Assembly (NCBI RefSeq): GCF_029027585.1 | Contig: NZ_CP093397.1 | Span: forward strand, 62,001 to 126,000 | Source: Sulfurimonas sp. | GTDB taxonomy: Bacteria; Campylobacterota; Campylobacteria; Campylobacterales; Sulfurimonadaceae | Direction: 5' to 3' | Length of the DNA stretch: 64,000 nt | In this document: piece by piece, positions 22,530 to 62,182 of the stretch | Layout: the number at the start of each line of letters is the position of its first letter | Numbering within the stretch: position 1 is the stretch's first letter | Made by a program: the position numbers and the translations under genes | The notes under the pieces: model-generated | What the model was told of the DNA's origin: nothing | What the model saw: the letters and a program-made list of their open reading frames with translations, nothing else | Database searches by the model: none

Positions 22530-23449
22530 ATGGAATTCTCTGATATCCAAAACCACTTAGAAGAAAACTCGAAAGATTTATCTTCTGAGTTTAAAAGACT
22601 CTTTCATGGTCGTGGTGGACTCTATGAAGGCTTTAAGCATCTATGCATAGACTCCATTGACACCGTTTTAAGCGTAGCACTTTATGATGAAGAAAAAGAT
22701 GAAGCTAAACTTATAGAGATGCTTGAAGAGTTTGTAAAAAATTCAAGACACAAAAGTATAGTTTTACAACGCAGATATTTAAAAGGCTCTCCATCTGAAG
22801 TTTTAGCTGGAGAGTTACCACAAGATTTATTTGTTATGGAAAATGGCATAAAAATAAAACTAACCTTCTTACAAATCGTAATAATGGATATTTTGCTGAT
22901 ATGAAAAATGGACGAGAGTTTGTAAGAGAAAATTCTAAAGATAAAAGCGTTTTAAATCTTTTTTCCTACACTTGTGCTTTTAGTCTGTCTGCAATTAAAG
23001 GCGGAGCAAAAAAAATATCAAACATCGATATGAATAAAAGTGCTTTAAGTACAGGACGCTCAAATCACCATCTAAACAACATAGATACTAAAAATGTTAG
23101 TTTTCACCCTTACAACATCTTAAAATCATTCTCACGCATTAAAAAGAAAGGTCCTTATGATTTAATCATCATAGACCCTCCAAGTTTTCAAAAAGGAAGT
23201 TTTGAGGCAACTAAAGACTATAAAAAACTCATCATAAAACTACCACAAATTGCATCCCAAGAATGTCTGCTACTAACTTGTTTAAACTCACCAGACTTAG
23301 ATGAAGAGTTTATAAAGGTTCTTATAAAAGAATGGGCTCCAAATTTTAAGTTTGTAAAAAGACTCAAAAATGTAAAAGAGTTTGAATCTTTAAATGAAGA
23401 TAGAAGCCTAAAAAATCTGGTATTTAAAAGAGAATTAAGTAGTTTATAA
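22530..23449 (+). CDS. Class I SAM-dependent methyltransferase (RlmI/RlmK-like), frameshifted
   Basis: Two overlapping frames (22530-22904 and 22901-23449) are one gene. The first ends shortly after the ENGIKIKL strand; the other frame supplies NLLTNRNNGYFADMKNGRE, the next conserved segment of rRNA methyltransferases of this type, then the SAM motif VLNLFSYTCAFS and the catalytic IIIDPPSFQKG. One missing base near 22846-22861 explains the break, and the restored protein has about 306 residues. The DPPSF motif suggests base methylation of rRNA. No independent ribosome site precedes the second half. Confidence 0.8.
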
Positions 23450-45806: not shown

Positions 45807-46219
45807 GTGGCAATAGTATCAACCAAAGGCATCTATGGTTTAACAGCGATGGTTATTTTAGCAAAAGAAAATGAACAGAAGTTATTACAAATCAAAGAGA
45901 TTGCAAGTAAGGGCGATATACCGCAAAACTACCTCGAACAGATACTTGTTACTTTGAAAAAAAGTGGCATAGTTGAGAGTATTCGAGGTGCTAGTGGTGG
46001 ATATAGACTATCTAAAAATGCCAACAACATATCTGTTTTTGAAATTCTAAACTCATTAGAGAGTAGTTTCGCACAAACAGATACTAAAACTAAAAACTCT
46101 CTTCTTCAACCATTTTGGGATGATTCTCAAAAAAAATAGAAGAGATTTTTTTACTTACACTGAATGAACTAGATGAATTTTTACAAAAAAATTCTGAAAA
46201 TTTCACATATTATATTTAA
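45807..46219 (+). CDS. Rrf2 family transcriptional regulator (CymR-like), frameshifted
   Basis: A winged-helix repressor that starts at GTG 45807. The family blocks VSTKGIYGLTAMVILA, LEQILVTLKKSGIV and RGASGGYRL are intact; the Fe-S Cys residues of IscR are missing, as in CymR. The frame stops at 46139 within a run of eight A (46129-46136). One more A continues as KIEEIFLLTLNELDEFLQ and stops at 46219, for the usual 137 residues or so. The downstream gene is cysK, and CymR in Gram-positives senses cysteine status through CysK, so control of this sulfur cluster is a reasonable inference. Confidence 0.85.
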
Positions 46220-52153: not shown

Positions 52154-52535
52154 ACTTTAAGACGGTGCTTAGATATTTCTGGAGATACAAAGTGTCTAAA
52201 ATACTCAGCACTTATAGGTTTTTTTAAAATCTATAAACACCATTATCTTTCATCTTCATAAAACTTTCACGATTTTCATCGCCACTTATTGCAAAAAAAG
52301 CTTTTTTTAAACTTGGCTGTATTTTAAAAACTTCAGATGCAAACTCATAACCATCCATTTTAGGCATATTTATATCACTAAAAACAATATCTGCACCATT
52401 TTGTTCTATAAATTCTAGTGCTTCATTGCCATTTTCGTATGAGTATATTTCACTATCATCTACATCTAAATCTTCTAAAAAAGATTCGAGTATCATTCTA
52501 ATAGTTAAGGAATCATCTAAAATTACAATTTTCAT
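52150..52535 (-). CDS. Single-domain response regulator (CheY-like), frameshifted
   Basis: A receiver domain with the acidic pair DD at 7-8, phospho-acceptor Asp54 ([12 protein letters not shown]) and conserved Ser in FAISGDE. The frame stops at 52224 after VYRF. Adding one base to the adjacent A/T run (52219-52229) continues as [17 protein letters not shown], which supplies the conserved K-P switch of receivers, and stops at 52150 for 128 residues. No output domain or kinase gene is adjacent. Confidence 0.85.
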
Positions 52536-54889: not shown

Positions 54890-55848
54890 CACAGCCAAAC
54901 TCCATTTTTTATATAATACATCATTACAAATGAAGTAAGTAATATAACATAAAGAGTGTTAATTATGATAGATTTTTGATAACTTATCTTTCTTATACTT
55001 TCATTTACATCTAAAAAAGCAACTACAAAACCATAAAAAGTTCCTAAAAATAAAAGTATATAAATTGGGTAACCTATAAAATAATATTCACTCTGTAAAA
55101 AACAAAATGGACAATGATGAGAGGGAAGTTCATAAATATATGTTCCAAAGAACACAATCAAAGAAACTAAAGAAATCAGTACAAAGAAGAGGTTACTTAG
55201 TGCAAACAGATACTTGTTTTTTAAAAAATAAAATACAAGTAACAGTAAAAAATTTGCATAAAAAAGAGTTAAAAGTGTAGTCGTGTTAAGAGTAAAAATA
55301 GAAGAAATCGCAGATGCTGATGTACTTGAGTAAAGCGTGCCACAACAACTAACCATTTTATCTATTTCAATAGAACTAAACATAACTCCTTCTAAAATCA
55401 ACTCAGCCATAAAAAGAAAAAAAGCAACTAAGTAAAGAGCGAATTTTTGTTTTACAAAGGGTTGATTTTCATGCTTTATATCTTCATTGTGTAAAACTAT
55501 CCAATAAGCAAATATATATAGATTTATGATTTTTAAGATAAAAAGAGGTGTTCCATAGACAGTAGCATCTACGACTCCCGCCCCACACATTGCACCTGTC
55601 AAGACATTAGATATTTTATCTAGTGTAAAGACAAAAAACAGAAATAATGGTACTTTTATGATAAAAATAAATTTTATAATAGTTGAAGCAAGGTAACTTT
55701 GTTTTTCTAGTTTGTACTGCAACTGACTTACAGAATTTCTATCCCATTTTCTATAAATATTTATACTTAAAATAAAAACAATAATTCCAAAAAATGCAAA
55801 AAGTGCATTAAGAATAAAAATAGTTAAAACTTCTGGTGTGAGTATCAA
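54889..55848 (-). CDS. Polytopic membrane protein with paired cysteine motifs
   Basis: A 319-residue protein with about eight membrane helices. Two cysteine motifs stand at membrane-edge loops, MVSCCGTLYSS and HHCPFCFLQSEYY, the second being a CXXC next to two His; another Cys is in GAMCGAGV. These could bind copper or act as a VKOR-like thiol exchange site. I do not recognise the family. It overlaps the ABC ATPase gene by four bases and touches the NosL-like gene, so it should act with both. Confidence 0.75.
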   Translation of the reverse strand: MILTPEVLTIFILNALFAFFGIIVFILSINIYRKWDRNSVSQLQYKLEKQSYLASTIIKFIFIIKVPLFLFFVFTLDKISNVLTGAMCGAGVVDATVYGTPLFILKIINLYIFAYWIVLHNEDIKHENQPFVKQKFALYLVAFFLFMAELILEGVMFSSIEIDKMVSCCGTLYSSTSASAISSIFTLNTTTLLTLFYANFLLLLVFYFLKNKYLFALSNLFFVLISLVSLIVFFGTYIYELPSHHCPFCFLQSEYYFIGYPIYILLFLGTFYGFVVAFLDVNESIRKISYQKSIIINTLYVILLTSFVMMYYIKNGVWL

Positions 55849-56513
55849 ACTAAAGAGCCATTATGCATCTGTATCTCTTTATCAACAAAATCAAGGTTGA
55901 AAAAAAGTGGGTCATGAGTTGCTACAACTATGGTCTTTCCAAGAGCTTTTAACTCACGAAGCATCTCTATAAAATGAAGTGAAAGTTTTTCATCAAGATT
56001 TGCTGTTGGCTCATCTGCTAAGATAATTTTAGGCTCATTTACATTTGCTCTTGCAATTGCTACTCGTTGTTGCTCTCCACCAGATAGATTTTTAACAATC
56101 GCATCTTTTTTATGCTCTATATGAAACATTTTCATAACTCTTTGCAACTTTGCATCTACTACTTTTGCATCTGGATTTAAAGGAACTAAAGGAAGTAAAA
56201 TATTTTCTTTTACACTAAGACTTGGGATAAGGTTGTATTTTTGAAAGATAAAACCTATGTTATCCCGTCTATACTCAGATGCAAAGCTATCAGGCAGTTT
56301 TGAGATTTGTTTAGCATCTACTATAACTTCCCCACTTGTTGGTTTAGATAAGGCAGCAATGAGCGATAAAACACTACTCTTACCACTACCACTAGCCCCC
56401 TTCAAAACAATCAACTCACCCTCATTAATTTTAAGGTTTATATCTTTAAGTGCTACAACAATATTGTTTTTATTTATCTCGTATGTTTTTGTTACATTTT
56501 TTAGTTCTATCAT
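55845..56513 (-). CDS. ABC transporter ATP-binding protein (LolD/MacB type)
   Basis: A 222-residue ATPase: Walker A GASGSGKSS (about 39-47), signature LSGGEQQRV and Walker B IILADEPTANLD. It belongs to the LolD/MacB/FtsE group, which pairs with FtsX-fold permeases. The only such permease nearby is encoded at 61001-62182, on the same strand but 4.5 kb upstream, on the other side of the WD40-caspase and AAA genes. Its ATG is two bases after the caspase gene stop. Confidence 0.9.
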   Translation of the reverse strand: MIELKNVTKTYEINKNNIVVALKDINLKINEGELIVLKGASGSGKSSVLSLIAALSKPTSGEVIVDAKQISKLPDSFASEYRRDNIGFIFQKYNLIPSLSVKENILLPLVPLNPDAKVVDAKLQRVMKMFHIEHKKDAIVKNLSGGEQQRVAIARANVNEPKIILADEPTANLDEKLSLHFIEMLRELKALGKTIVVATHDPLFFNLDFVDKEIQMHNGSLV

Positions 56514-56515
56514 AT

Positions 56516-59500
56516 TTACTTTACCTTTACCAAAGGAAATCCTTGTCCCAACGGAGATATAAACGGGTACTGTGCACGCTTAAACTCACGCTCTGCAATC
56601 TCTGGAACCATGTCTTCTACGAAGTTTGCGATCTCTAATGTTTTTATATATCCATCTCTATCACTATCTGCTTTACCATTTAGTCCATCTGTTAATACAT
56701 AAGTAAGAAGACCATGACCTTTATAACCTTCTAGTGCTTCTTGGCTTGATGAAGATGCAGAAATGATAGTAGAACCTACTGCTCTACTTAAAACCTTCAT
56801 AGCAGTTGTTTCAGTTAGTCCTCTTGTAAGTAATGCAACTTCTATAGCTTGACCTAATGCTCCTGAATTACAAGTATCTAGTATGATAAATTTTTTAGTT
56901 GTTGGAATATTTGCTATCATATCTCTAAGTGCATTTTGGCCTATAGCTTCTCTTTTTATTCCTCTACTTGATAATGCTCCAACATTTGAAGTAATCATAT
57001 GATACTTAGCATCTTCTATCATCCCATGACTTGCTACAAAAAATATAAACAAATCATTTGAAGATATATTTTCTAAATTTTTTAAAGTTTTAGTGATGTG
57101 TTCTTTTGAAGTTTGCTCTTTTGATATTAGTAATTTTATGTTTACATCACCATATAACCCTTTAGTTCTTTTCTTTATAGTTTTTGCGAAAAGCTTTGCA
57201 TCTGCTACTGCGTATTTTAAAGCTATTGTTGGATTCTTATATTCATTTATTCCAACTATTACTGCATAGATGTTTGGTTTAACTATTGGGTTATAAGTTG
57301 ATGTTACAGCTAAAGTGTCTTCTCTAGATGCCATAGTGTTAGCTTCATTGTAAACTATAGCTTTTAATGTGTGTTTTCCTTTTGGAAGTTTGATGGTGTA
57401 TGTTTTAAGAACTATATTTTTATTCTGTTTCTTTTTAAGTCCTCTATCTCCATCTGTCTTAATAAGAACTCCATCAAGATAAAGTCTTATTTGTCCTATA
57501 CCACCTGAACTTGGAGTAATGCGAAGAGTTACTTTTAACTCTTCTTTTTTTATAGATGTTTTAGTATCTATTATAGCTACTTGTGGGGCTGGCTTTACAT
57601 CTGATAGTTTTAGAGTTGGTATAACTATTATTTTTTTAACTTTTTTTATTTTATGGACTTTCTTCTTAACTATTTTTAGTTCTGTATTAACAATTTTATC
57701 TTGTCCTGCTAAAAAGTTTGACGGTTTTACATCAGACAAAGATAATTTCATAATATCAGGACGATAAAAGGTTTCAAAGTATTGATCTATACTTGATACA
57801 TCCATTGGAGTTGTTAAAACATTAAGATATTTTGGAGCTTTTGCTGACGAATTAAAATACCCCTCGGATGTAATAGATAACCATTCATTATCATCAAAAG
57901 CTACAATATCTAAAAGATTTTTATTATTTTTATTGTCCCAAAGGTTAATACTATATCTACCAACTTTATAACTATAATCTCCATCTATTGATAATAATTC
58001 TTTGCCATTATTTATTAATTTCTTATTCTCATTTTGCGTTATTTTTATAAATTTAGTTGATGTTTCTATATCTAATTTATAATAATCCTTTTTTAAATAA
58101 TTTTGATATTCTGATATAGAAATAAGCAGTGATTTATTATCTTTAGAAAAAGTAAATACATTAAAATCTATATAGTTATTATACTTTATACTTTTAACTT
58201 CCTTATTTGATTTTAAATCAAACAATATTATATTTTCATTCTTATGATACGCTATATATCTACCATCTGAACTATAAATAAATTCTTCAAGTTTTAAACT
58301 ATCAGGTATTTTCATTATTTTGTTTTTCACTGTTTTAAGACTAAATGTTTTATCATCTAAAAACAAATCCATAATAACTATTGATTTGTCATCTATATCA
58401 AAACTTGATAATGTTTTTTTACTTTTAAAATCTAAAAATAGTAATTTCTTTTTTGTCTTTAAAACTATATATTTTTTATTATTAGTTATCCGAAAATCTA
58501 TTATTTTTTTCTTTACTATTTACAGTAAAAATATCCCTCCTTGTTCCTGAATTAATTTCATAAGTACTTATTATATTTTTTTCATACAAAACTGCAAAGT
58601 TTTTTTTATCTGGACAAGCAATAATTTTTTTTGGAGAAATAAAATGCTTTCTAAAATCTTTGATATTTTTCCAAGATTTCATATCCCAAAGTTTAATCCC
58701 TTGTCTATCAGCTGAAGCTAAATATTTTCCAGTAGGACTAAAGGCTGAATAAAATGTCCAAAATTTATGCCCTTGCAATGTTTTATATAGAGTCATATCG
58801 TCCATCTTCCATATTTTAACAGTTTTATCAATACTGTTAGAAGCTAAATATTTACCATCAGGACTATAGCTAACACTATAAACCCAATCTTTATGTCCAT
58901 GAAGAGTTTTTAACTCTTTTTTATCATCTATATTCCATATTTTTATTACATGTTCTTTGATGTCTTCATAAGAACCTGAAGAAGAAGCTATATTTTGTCC
59001 ATCTGGACTAAAAGCAACAGAATATACCCCATCTTTATGTCCGCTAAATACATATACCTCTTCAGCACTCTTTGCATCCCAAAGTCTAACCATTTGATCT
59101 CTACCACCAGATACAATCAACTTACTATCAGGACTAAATGCGACAGAGTAAGCATAACCTCCATCATGCCCTTTAAAAGTTTTTATAGACTTGTCTTTAT
59201 TTATATCCCAAAGCTTTAGCGTTCCATCATAACTTGCCGTTACAAATCTATTGCTATTGGTATCTATTGCCAATGATGACACCCCCAGAGTATGACCTTT
59301 AAAAGTTTTCACATGCTCTCCTGTTACTAAATTCCATAACATAATTGTCTTATCCATGCTTGCCGACAATACAAATTTACCGTCATTTGTTAGTGCCACT
59401 GAGTGAACTTCACCTGTATGACCACTAAAGGTTCTAATCTCTTTTCCATTATTTATTTGCCATAGTTTAACAGTTTTATCACCTGAACTTGAAAGTAAAT

Positions 59501-59687
59501 GTTTACCATCTTTTGTAAAAACAAGTTTGCTCACTCCTCGATCATGACCGTACTCAACAAAAGGTTTAGTCATCTTAAAGTTTTTATCTGTATATATAAT
59601 ATTTTCAGGTTTTGCAACTTTAATTTTACTACTTGATGAACCACAACCAACTAACAAAAATACAATTAAAACTAAATGTCTATACAT
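56516..59687 (-). CDS. WD40-repeat caspase-like (C14) lipoprotein, frameshifted
   Basis: Two frames are one gene. The first half starts at ATG 59687 (GGGAG ribosome site) with a lipobox (FLLVGCG) and seven clear WD40 repeats (for example SGHTGEVHSVALTNDGKF). Its frame ends at 58482. The other frame is open from there as IIDFRITNNKKYIVLKTKKK into a second, degenerate propeller. Removing one A from the 7-base run at 58504-58510 joins them into about 1056 residues. Then follow a family-typical linker (ITSEGYFNSSAKAPKYLNV), an Ig-like domain and a caspase domain with catalytic His (FFVASHG) and Cys (ILDTCNSG). It would be a lipid-anchored, probably periplasmic protease-like sensor. Its start overlaps the AAA ATPase gene and its stop is two bases before the ABC ATPase gene. 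Confidence 0.85.
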
Positions 59688-60954
59688 TTTTATCTCCCTT
59701 AAGAATAAACTCATCCAAACTAATTATCTCTACATCATCAACACTAGCATTTTTACTATATGTTATCAATCTACAAATATCACCATCTTTTTTAAACTGC
59801 TTAAAACTTCTAAATTCTCTCTTTTTAGTGCTTTCCTCTTCTATATCAAAAGCTACTTGGTACAGTATATTATTTGAGTAAAAATCAACCTCATACTTAT
59901 CTTTTAAGTATGTCAGTTTTTCATCATTTTTATATAAAATATTAAAAACTAGATTTTCCAAAGCTATGCCTTTATTTTTAGTTCTGTTTATTCCTAAATT
60001 TAAAAAACCATTGTCACTGATGTAAAGTTTTTTTACTGACTTTATTTGCTGTGTAAATTTTGAATGAAAAGCAGGTATGGTATTTACTAAAAAATTATCT
60101 TCAAAGTAAGTTATATATTCTTTTATCATCTTTGCATCTATACTTATCTTTTTTGCCAAACTTGAGTAGTTAAGTTCTGTTGTGGCATTTGAAATCACAT
60201 AGTAAAAAAGGTCTTTTATAGCTTGGCTATTTTTTATCTTGTATCTTGGAACAATATCTTTAAGTATTATATCTTCTGCAATATTTTTCAACTGCTCTTT
60301 TTTTATCATTTCATTTTCGTTTGAAATAACAGAATAATATCCACCCCATTTAAGATATTCATCTTTTGCTCTACTTATTTCTATCTTATTTGCTGTTCTT
60401 TGTAGAACACTTGTGTAAGATATATTTTTAAACTGCAAAAACTCTTGGAAACTAAAGCTATATATTTGAAGTTTTAAAACTCTACCTGTTAGTACAGTTG
60501 CATAATTTGATGTAAGTAGTGATGAATTTGAGCCTGTAATAATAAACTTTATATTACTATTTTCATACTTTGATTTTACAAATACTTCCCAGTTTTCAAA
60601 TATTTGAACTTCATCTATAAAAAAGTATATTTTTTCATCTTTATTAGGATTGGCAATTTTCATGTATTCATCAAAAATAGTATTTAAATAACTAGCATCA
60701 TTTTTATAAGGTATAAATTCTGGTTTTTCAAGATTTATAAAAAATATATTTTTTGCTTCAACATTCTTCAAAAGTTCTTTTATAAGTAATTTGGCAATAG
60801 TACTCTTACCAACTCTTCTGGCTCCAATAAGGGCTAAGACCTCTTTTGTATCAATATATGCAAGAGCTTTTTCCAAAACATCTCTACTTATAAAATGATT
60901 ATAAGCCTCACTATTTATCCAATGATTATTATCTTCCAAAAGAATTGATTTCAT
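59680..60954 (-). CDS. AAA-14/DUF4143 ATPase
   Basis: A 424-residue ATP-binding protein: Walker A GARRVGKST (about 43-51), Walker B IYFFIDEVQIFENW and sensor FIITGSNSSLL, then a DUF4143 C-terminal domain that ends in a PD-(D/E)xK-like strand pair (YEVDFYSNNILYQVAF). The function of the family is unknown; members are often mobile or solitary. The stop overlaps the start of the WD40-caspase gene, so the two are coupled. A promoter and palindrome lie directly upstream. Confidence 0.85.
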   Translation of the reverse strand: MKSILLEDNNHWINSEAYNHFISRDVLEKALAYIDTKEVLALIGARRVGKSTIAKLLIKELLKNVEAKNIFFINLEKPEFIPYKNDASYLNTIFDEYMKIANPNKDEKIYFFIDEVQIFENWEVFVKSKYENSNIKFIITGSNSSLLTSNYATVLTGRVLKLQIYSFSFQEFLQFKNISYTSVLQRTANKIEISRAKDEYLKWGGYYSVISNENEMIKKEQLKNIAEDIILKDIVPRYKIKNSQAIKDLFYYVISNATTELNYSSLAKKISIDAKMIKEYITYFEDNFLVNTIPAFHSKFTQQIKSVKKLYISDNGFLNLGINRTKNKGIALENLVFNILYKNDEKLTYLKDKYEVDFYSNNILYQVAFDIEEESTKKREFRSFKQFKKDGDICRLITYSKNASVDDVEIISLDEFILKGDKNV

Positions 60955-60971
60955 TTTTTATATACCTTTAA

Positions 60972-60992
60972 AGGAATGTATTCCTGATTATA
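60972..60992 (-). promoter_or_regulatory. Candidate promoter with palindromic operator upstream of the AAA-caspase pair
   Basis: On the minus strand a TATAAT (60987-60992) is followed at once by a perfect palindrome AGGAAT-AC-ATTCCT (60972-60985) that would cover the transcription start. A weak -35 only. This suggests that the AAA and caspase genes have their own regulated promoter inside the larger operon. Confidence 0.5.
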
Positions 60993-61000
60993 ACATAAAA

Positions 61001-62182
61001 TTATCTAACAACCTCATCAGCATCTAAAGTCGCTATCTTCCATGATGGGATGATAGTCGCTGATATATAGATAGGTACACTTAGAAAAAAGACTAAAAAA
61101 AGTGTTTGAGTATCAAATATAAAAGGAAGTTCAAAAGATGTTTTTAGTTGTGAGTAACCTGTAAATATATTTTGCAAAAGTGGTGCTTGTAAAATATACA
61201 CAAAAAGAAATGCCAAAATAACACCAAAAAGATAAGCGATAAAAGAGATGATAAAACCTTCATAAAACTTCTCTTTAAGAACATCATCCACCCTCCAACC
61301 TATGGCTTTAAGTATTCCTATTTCTCTTTTTTCTTCACTACTAAGTCCACTTGCCTTGTCATAGATGATTATAAAAAATGTAAATAGTGAGATGATGAAA
61401 AGTGCTAAAAATATCCCACTTTTGTAATCAAATATATTCTGATAACTAATCTTTAAATCATTTTTTGTTATCACTCTGGCATCTGGAAAAAGAAGCTTTA
61501 TCTTAGATGCAACAGTTACAACCTCATCAAGATTTGAAACCTTTACAACTATGTCCGTAGCCTTTGACTCATCTATGTCAAAAATCTCTCTCGCACTTGC
61601 CTTTGTCATAACTATCATATCATTTGATTCTAGTTGAGTATCTCCATCAAACACACCTTTTAAATATATTTTTTTTAGTTCTCCATTTGGTTTTATGAAG
61701 TTAAAATACTCTTTGTAGTAGTTTTTTAACATCGTTTTTTTTACTCCACTTCCAACCAACATAGATGCATTATCGTTAAAGTCAAGTTTTGCATTATCAA
61801 CTATAATAGAGAGTGACTTTTTATATTGCTCTTCAAACTCATCAATTCCAACAACACTAAAGTTTACTCCAGCATTCTCAAAATAGTAGTATCCCCAAAC
61901 ACGAGCAGTGGCATCTACAACTCCTGTGATTTCTAAGATAGCATCTGAACTACTCACATCTATGTCATAGTGTCTTCCTGCTTTTATCTTTTGAACGATT
62001 ATTTGAGGAAGAGCATCTACGGTTGAGTTTAACTCTGATTTGATGGAGTTAGTTATAAAAAAAACGCTTGTTAAAAGAAAAATCAAAAGAGTCAACACTG
62101 TTGTAATAAAAAAGCTTTTATACTTTTGTCTTAGTATGGAGTTTATGGCGTACTCTATAAGGTAAAAATTTATTTTATTCAT
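61001..62182 (-). CDS. ABC transporter permease, FtsX/MacB fold
   Basis: A 393-residue protein with an N-terminal helix (about 18-40), a large extracytoplasmic domain (about 45-255) and three C-terminal helices (about 265-385). The EKREIGILKAIGWRVDDVL segment after the second helix is the ATPase-coupling motif of this fold. Partner ATPase probably encoded at 55845-56513. Family members move lipoproteins or act as mechanotransmitters rather than importing solutes. It overlaps the small upstream gene by 8 bases. Confidence 0.88.
   Translation of the reverse strand: MNKINFYLIEYAINSILRQKYKSFFITTVLTLLIFLLTSVFFITNSIKSELNSTVDALPQIIVQKIKAGRHYDIDVSSSDAILEITGVVDATARVWGYYYFENAGVNFSVVGIDEFEEQYKKSLSIIVDNAKLDFNDNASMLVGSGVKKTMLKNYYKEYFNFIKPNGELKKIYLKGVFDGDTQLESNDMIVMTKASAREIFDIDESKATDIVVKVSNLDEVVTVASKIKLLFPDARVITKNDLKISYQNIFDYKSGIFLALFIISLFTFFIIIYDKASGLSSEEKREIGILKAIGWRVDDVLKEKFYEGFIISFIAYLFGVILAFLFVYILQAPLLQNIFTGYSQLKTSFELPFIFDTQTLFLVFFLSVPIYISATIIPSWKIATLDADEVVR

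Follow-up and report, generated by a model that had tools for sequence, protein, structure and literature searches.

This locus is annotated as two genes, one encoding WD40 repeats and the other a caspase. The question it raises is whether these are separate proteins or one protein divided by a change of frame and, if the latter, what caused the division and what the intact product might do. We examined it within the window, by which we mean the whole 64 kb stretch of DNA that was analyzed. The reading we prefer, to which we assign a probability of about two in three, is that the two frames encode a single exported lipoprotein with WD40, Ig-like and caspase parts, that the frame change is a sequence error in an intact gene, and that the product would act as a ligand-gated protease of the envelope.

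The gene, its parts and its relatives

Read across a frame change at a run of seven A residues (58504-58510), the minus strand from 59714 to 56516 yields one protein of about 1056 residues, counted from the probable lipoprotein start, an ATG at 59687. The WD40 frame (58482-59714, 410 aa) and the caspase frame (56516-58519, 667 codons from stop to stop) overlap by 38 bases, and the seven-base run is the only long homopolymer in the overlap. A simple coding-frame model changes frame at this run, without a stop-and-start junction. As the initial annotation had claimed, the caspase frame is open 5' of its first ATG (58372). The features are collected in Table 1.

Table 1. Features of the WD40-caspase locus and its flanks, in window positions
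Feature	Position	Strand	Basis or remark
FtsX-type permease, flanking, host operon	61001..62182	-	
AAA_14-DUF4143 ATPase; PADLOC candidate PDC-S01	59680..60954	-	E 1.1e-95; 8-base overlap with lipoprotein start
Single WD40-caspase lipoprotein gene, frame change bridged	56516..59687	-	Both halves covered by single-frame homologues
Signal peptide and lipobox, MYRHLVLIVFLLVGC	59643..59687	-	Translation; lipobox LVGC, +2 residue Gly
First WD40 propeller, about 7 repeats	58659..59549	-	Pfam WD40, 7 stretches, E 2.1e-75
Two-frame overlap with A7 run (T7 on + strand) at 58504-58510	58482..58519	-	
Second propeller, more degenerate, beginning in the WD40 frame	57920..58519	-	Weak propeller matches; repeated beta strands in a low-confidence model
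Conserved linker ending DQYFETFYRPD, near the boundary of the divergent sensor half	57755..57895	-	
Ig-like beta sandwich (predicted)	57290..57592	-	AlphaFold2 strands, caspase-frame residues 313-407, pLDDT ~60-86
Caspase (peptidase C14) domain	56555..57268	-	PF00656, E 8.5e-14
Catalytic His codon (ASHG), H498	57026..57028	-	Invariant, 17 rows
Catalytic Cys codon (DTCNSG), C550	56870..56872	-	Invariant, 17 rows
ABC ATPase, flanking, host operon	55845..56513	-	Adjoins FtsX in relatives without insert

The Pfam matches to PF00656 and to WD40 (E values in Table 1) are far beyond chance. The former reached 52.2 bits against a gathering score of 21.4, which places the domain in family C14. The catalytic His and Cys, described as intact in the initial annotation, are both invariant in an alignment of 17 sequences, and the domain is thus a predicted C14 protease with an intact dyad. 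The only NCBIfam model to match it was NF047832 (caspase, EACC1-associated type; E 4e-14), with a score of 52.6 bits that lies below the curated cut-off of 140. The structure models were of medium confidence overall. AlphaFold2 gave the caspase frame a pLDDT of 68.6, with the caspase part mostly at 82-96 and some loops lower. Foldseek matched this model to caspase-11 (6ns7, TMt 0.62) and MALT1 (8v4x, 0.46), which ranked 31 and 43 in a list made up mostly of propeller matches. The model of a relative from Chromatiales (mean pLDDT 66.7) had the same order of parts, and its propeller matched known WD40 structures.

A contig scan with the caspase half alone gave no match, while an alignment query did. 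A complete genome of the same genus (G379) holds six full-length copies, each in a single frame (1159, 1095, 1064, 1045, 1018 and 959 aa). The four longest are 77-85% identical to the window protein after the FYRPD motif and extend N-terminally through WD40 repeats without a shift; the other two are more distant and intact too. About 25 further relatives are single open frames, among them members in G023 (1040 aa) and G018 (1019 aa), a paralogue in the genome of the window itself (1016 aa) and proteins from Chromatiales, Bacteroidota and UASB270 (955-1180 aa). These single-frame relatives measure approximately 950-1300 aa. Single-frame members also occur in the order beyond the genus, the one exception being a gene in G011 with a frameshift of its own. 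The usual order of parts is signal peptide or lipobox, WD40 propellers, FYRPD linker, Ig-like sandwich and C14 caspase. The search for full-length homologues therefore returned single proteins and not invariably two, and intact homologues span the join, which bears out the earlier proposal of one WD40-caspase lipoprotein split by a single indel. Judged by sequence, the two annotated genes are one WD40-caspase gene, and their split conceals a complete predicted exported caspase.

Two groups of relatives stand apart. A different caspase subclade (L054, L055 and L100) lies beside a CHASE2-domain gene family and a small unknown gene. Caspase genes resembling those of Sulfurimonas (L116 and L119) occur in a MAG record labeled Helicobacter pylori PMSS1, and this label looks doubtful.

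Cause of the frame change

The most probable reading of the shift at the A7 run is that sequencing or assembly introduced an error into a gene that is in fact intact. The window contains four frameshifts that look like single-base events, so assembly error is the simplest cause, and the idea that the break is a special feature of the WD40-caspase gene did not hold. An Rrf2-type regulator (45807-46139) stops after FWDDSQKK, behind an A8 run, and its next frame runs on as IEEIFLLTLNELDEFLQKNSENFTYYI, much like relatives L151 and L152; this break is probably a sequence error. A CheY-like receiver (52224-52535) stops directly before the conserved LKKP, which the next frame supplies and which the intact receiver of G379 retains. 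A SAM-dependent methyltransferase (22530-23449) is in two pieces (124 and 182 aa), compared with frames of 304-358 aa in four relatives. Elsewhere in the same genome, a DUF4143 paralogue of the neighboring AAA_14-DUF4143 ATPase (L137, G000:C1, ~1645.7 kb) looks split near a T6 run. Multiple disruptions of conserved genes, most of them at homopolymers, have the appearance expected of errors left over from long-read sequencing (compare PMC12007338), and on this ground we judged the WD40-caspase split to be probably an artifact. These breaks suggest that homopolymer indels disrupt other genes of this complete genome. Three points speak against an error: the other three breaks in the window resemble single lost bases, whereas the A7 break needs the opposite shift or a loss of two bases; the window contains 124 A/T runs of at least 7, many of them without any break; and genome completeness is 99.87%.

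Another possibility is a real and recent frameshift, leaving the strain either with a pseudogene or with a shortened WD40 lipoprotein followed by an untranslated caspase part. The family may decay at times, as the frameshifted gene of G011 (1233 aa + 74 aa) and a stop-containing caspase fragment at 713.5 kb in G379 indicate. However, 667 codons remain open downstream with the catalytic residues intact, and conserved genes of the same window are broken alike, which points to errors; we consider a real frameshift unlikely. It could also be speculated that slippage during transcription, or phase variation, at the A run of the join lets the protein be expressed in spite of the break. Slippage at runs of A is a known phenomenon, as is phase variation through homopolymers in Campylobacterota. 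A run of seven is short, though, such runs are common in the window, and homologues of the same genus stay in frame without any shift, so that this explanation appears quite improbable. We rejected a -1 slip of the ribosome at A-AAA-AAT, as the resulting frame runs into a TAA immediately. The least probable alternative, to which we give hardly any weight, is that of two genuine genes, one for a WD40 lipoprotein and the other for a cytosolic caspase. The caspase frame does yield 618 aa from its first ATG, but this codon falls within a propeller, and the two parts are fused in almost all relatives with complete ends.

Divergence of the sensor and protease halves

Across the window protein and the four G379 proteins close to it, identity was 77-94% after FYRPD and 24-31% before it, the latter values perhaps stemming in part from misaligned repeats. 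In the caspase half, third codon positions were only 48-67% identical between the window and G379, and this half is therefore held mainly by purifying selection. In the caspase genes of L049 and L050, third-position identity over the last ~185 codons was 85-92%, which suggests that these two copies were recently gene-converted over that stretch.

The reverse pattern was found at L028, L053, L096 and L097. Their WD40 halves are 50-65% identical to those of L022, L023 and L052, while their caspases are 23-29% identical, and the identity falls sharply at FYRPD. With groups that were named after the trees had been seen, an AU test rejected the placement of these four caspases with those of L022, L023, L051 and L052 (p 1e-5) and did not reject that of the WD40 halves with L118 (p 0.106). 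The trees and the AU test agree with a putative replacement of the caspase part in this lineage. The idea that the WD40 and caspase trees differ in shape carries less weight: the four loci cluster in both, so a single effector replacement at the base of the clade suffices.

Export, partner and genomic setting

The lipobox of the window protein (LLVGC) places it among bacterial lipoproteins, as judged by pattern and hydrophobicity. By pattern, almost all relatives whose N-terminus is complete have a signal peptide or lipobox, which locates the caspase, by prediction, outside the cytoplasm; the WD40-caspase is predicted to be exported to the envelope. Its most likely role, we infer, is that of a ligand-gated envelope protease. 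Anchored in the envelope as a lipoprotein, the protein would bind through its variable propeller half a ligand such as a foreign or stress-exposed envelope component. Binding would free the conserved caspase, which could then cut a periplasmic target, perhaps a co-occurring LPP20/FlgO/DUF4384-like protein.

This candidate partner is an exported protein of ~465 aa that adjoins six caspase loci and has weak matches to LPP20, FlgO and DUF4384, several of them scoring below the Pfam cut-offs. Of the genus genomes with a caspase match above 300 bits, 9 of 9 had it, as did 4 of 126 others (Fisher 2e-11), a p-value that overstates independence, as the 300-bit cut-off was set afterwards and the genomes are related. 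None of six genus genomes with a weaker match (<300 bits) had it; when all caspase matches are counted, the figures are 9 of 15 against 4 of 120 (p 1e-7). Against the link, the partner also occurs in four genus genomes that gave no caspase match. In the genome of the window the partner gene lies at 609-610 kb, unlinked to the caspase.

WD40-caspases are an already known kind of protein, here with unusual evolutionary features. Our literature searches, which covered open-access papers, found no periplasmic WD40-caspase in Campylobacterota. A survey of bacterial metacaspases (Asplund-Samuelsson et al. 2012, PMC3501461) found WD40 in 10.9% of them and noted signal-peptide-like N-terminal helices; its count for Epsilonproteobacteria was very low (0.01 per 1000 proteins). 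Those WD40-containing metacaspases likewise join a C14 domain to WD40 repeats. In the present family, unlike the surveyed proteins, the caspase is C-terminal and nearly always exported (by prediction), with a FYRPD linker and an Ig-like domain. Cyanobacterial orthocaspases, for which a ligand-sensing model has also been proposed, share the link of a caspase with WD40 and DUF4384 (PMC7475262). There, however, DUF4384 is fused and the caspase is modeled as cytosolic; in the present family the DUF4384-like part is an exported protein of its own, and the caspase is expected to lie beyond the cytoplasm. Modular pairing of variable parts with caspase effectors is likewise seen in diversifying conflict systems, where the effectors can be swapped (Kaur et al. 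2020, PMC7159879); they are centered on an NTPase, while the window protein has no fused NTPase.

We tentatively propose a family of caspases anchored in the envelope, whose conserved protease would be joined to WD40 sensors that diversify quickly or are exchanged, and would work with a dedicated LPP20/FlgO/DUF4384-like partner that is itself exported. Such a family would serve periplasmic recognition and proteolysis through repertoire-like copies, six of which are present at full length in one genome. Whether bacterial caspases act extracytoplasmically as sensors of envelope signals can be clearly tested in this family, and copies in the same genome with a common protease and differing sensors make such testing possible.

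Defense against phage or rivals is a possible purpose of such a protease. The initial annotation had suggested a phage-response role, and the variable position, the candidate-defense neighbor and the fast-changing sensor keep this possible; the idea of a cytosolic phage sensor, on the other hand, is weakened because the protein is exported. In a NosL-type transporter operon, the WD40-caspase and the ATPase gene are placed between the genes for the FtsX permease and the ABC ATPase. These flanking genes adjoin directly in G012, G032 and G462, are separated by only a 45-aa frame in G490, and enclose a RhuM gene and an unknown gene in G379. The differing contents mark the site as a variable slot. 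A functional alternative, compatible with one protein, is that the caspase is an anti-phage effector acting together with the adjacent ATPase. This ATPase matches the PDC-S01 profile at full length (positions 9-408 of 412), a RhuM gene occupies the slot in G379, and the L049 copy lies downstream of a tmRNA and an integrase. We regard such a pairing as doubtful, since the protein is exported to the envelope, PDC-S01 is a candidate family, and the match of the caspase itself in PADLOC is generic and partial (E 6.4e-11; residues 415-612 against positions 1-162 of 453). Moreover, among the other loci compared the ATPase recurs beside the caspase only as a distant one in L024.

The slot as a whole, in the window (56514-61000) and at L102, L103-L105 and L107, was found empty or filled by a small frame, the RhuM pair or the ATPase with the WD40-caspase. 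The arrangement at L049 (3953-13505) is island-like: a tmRNA comes first, then a phage-type integrase and a Fic protein, and after these the WD40-caspase with its LPP20/DUF4384-like neighbor.
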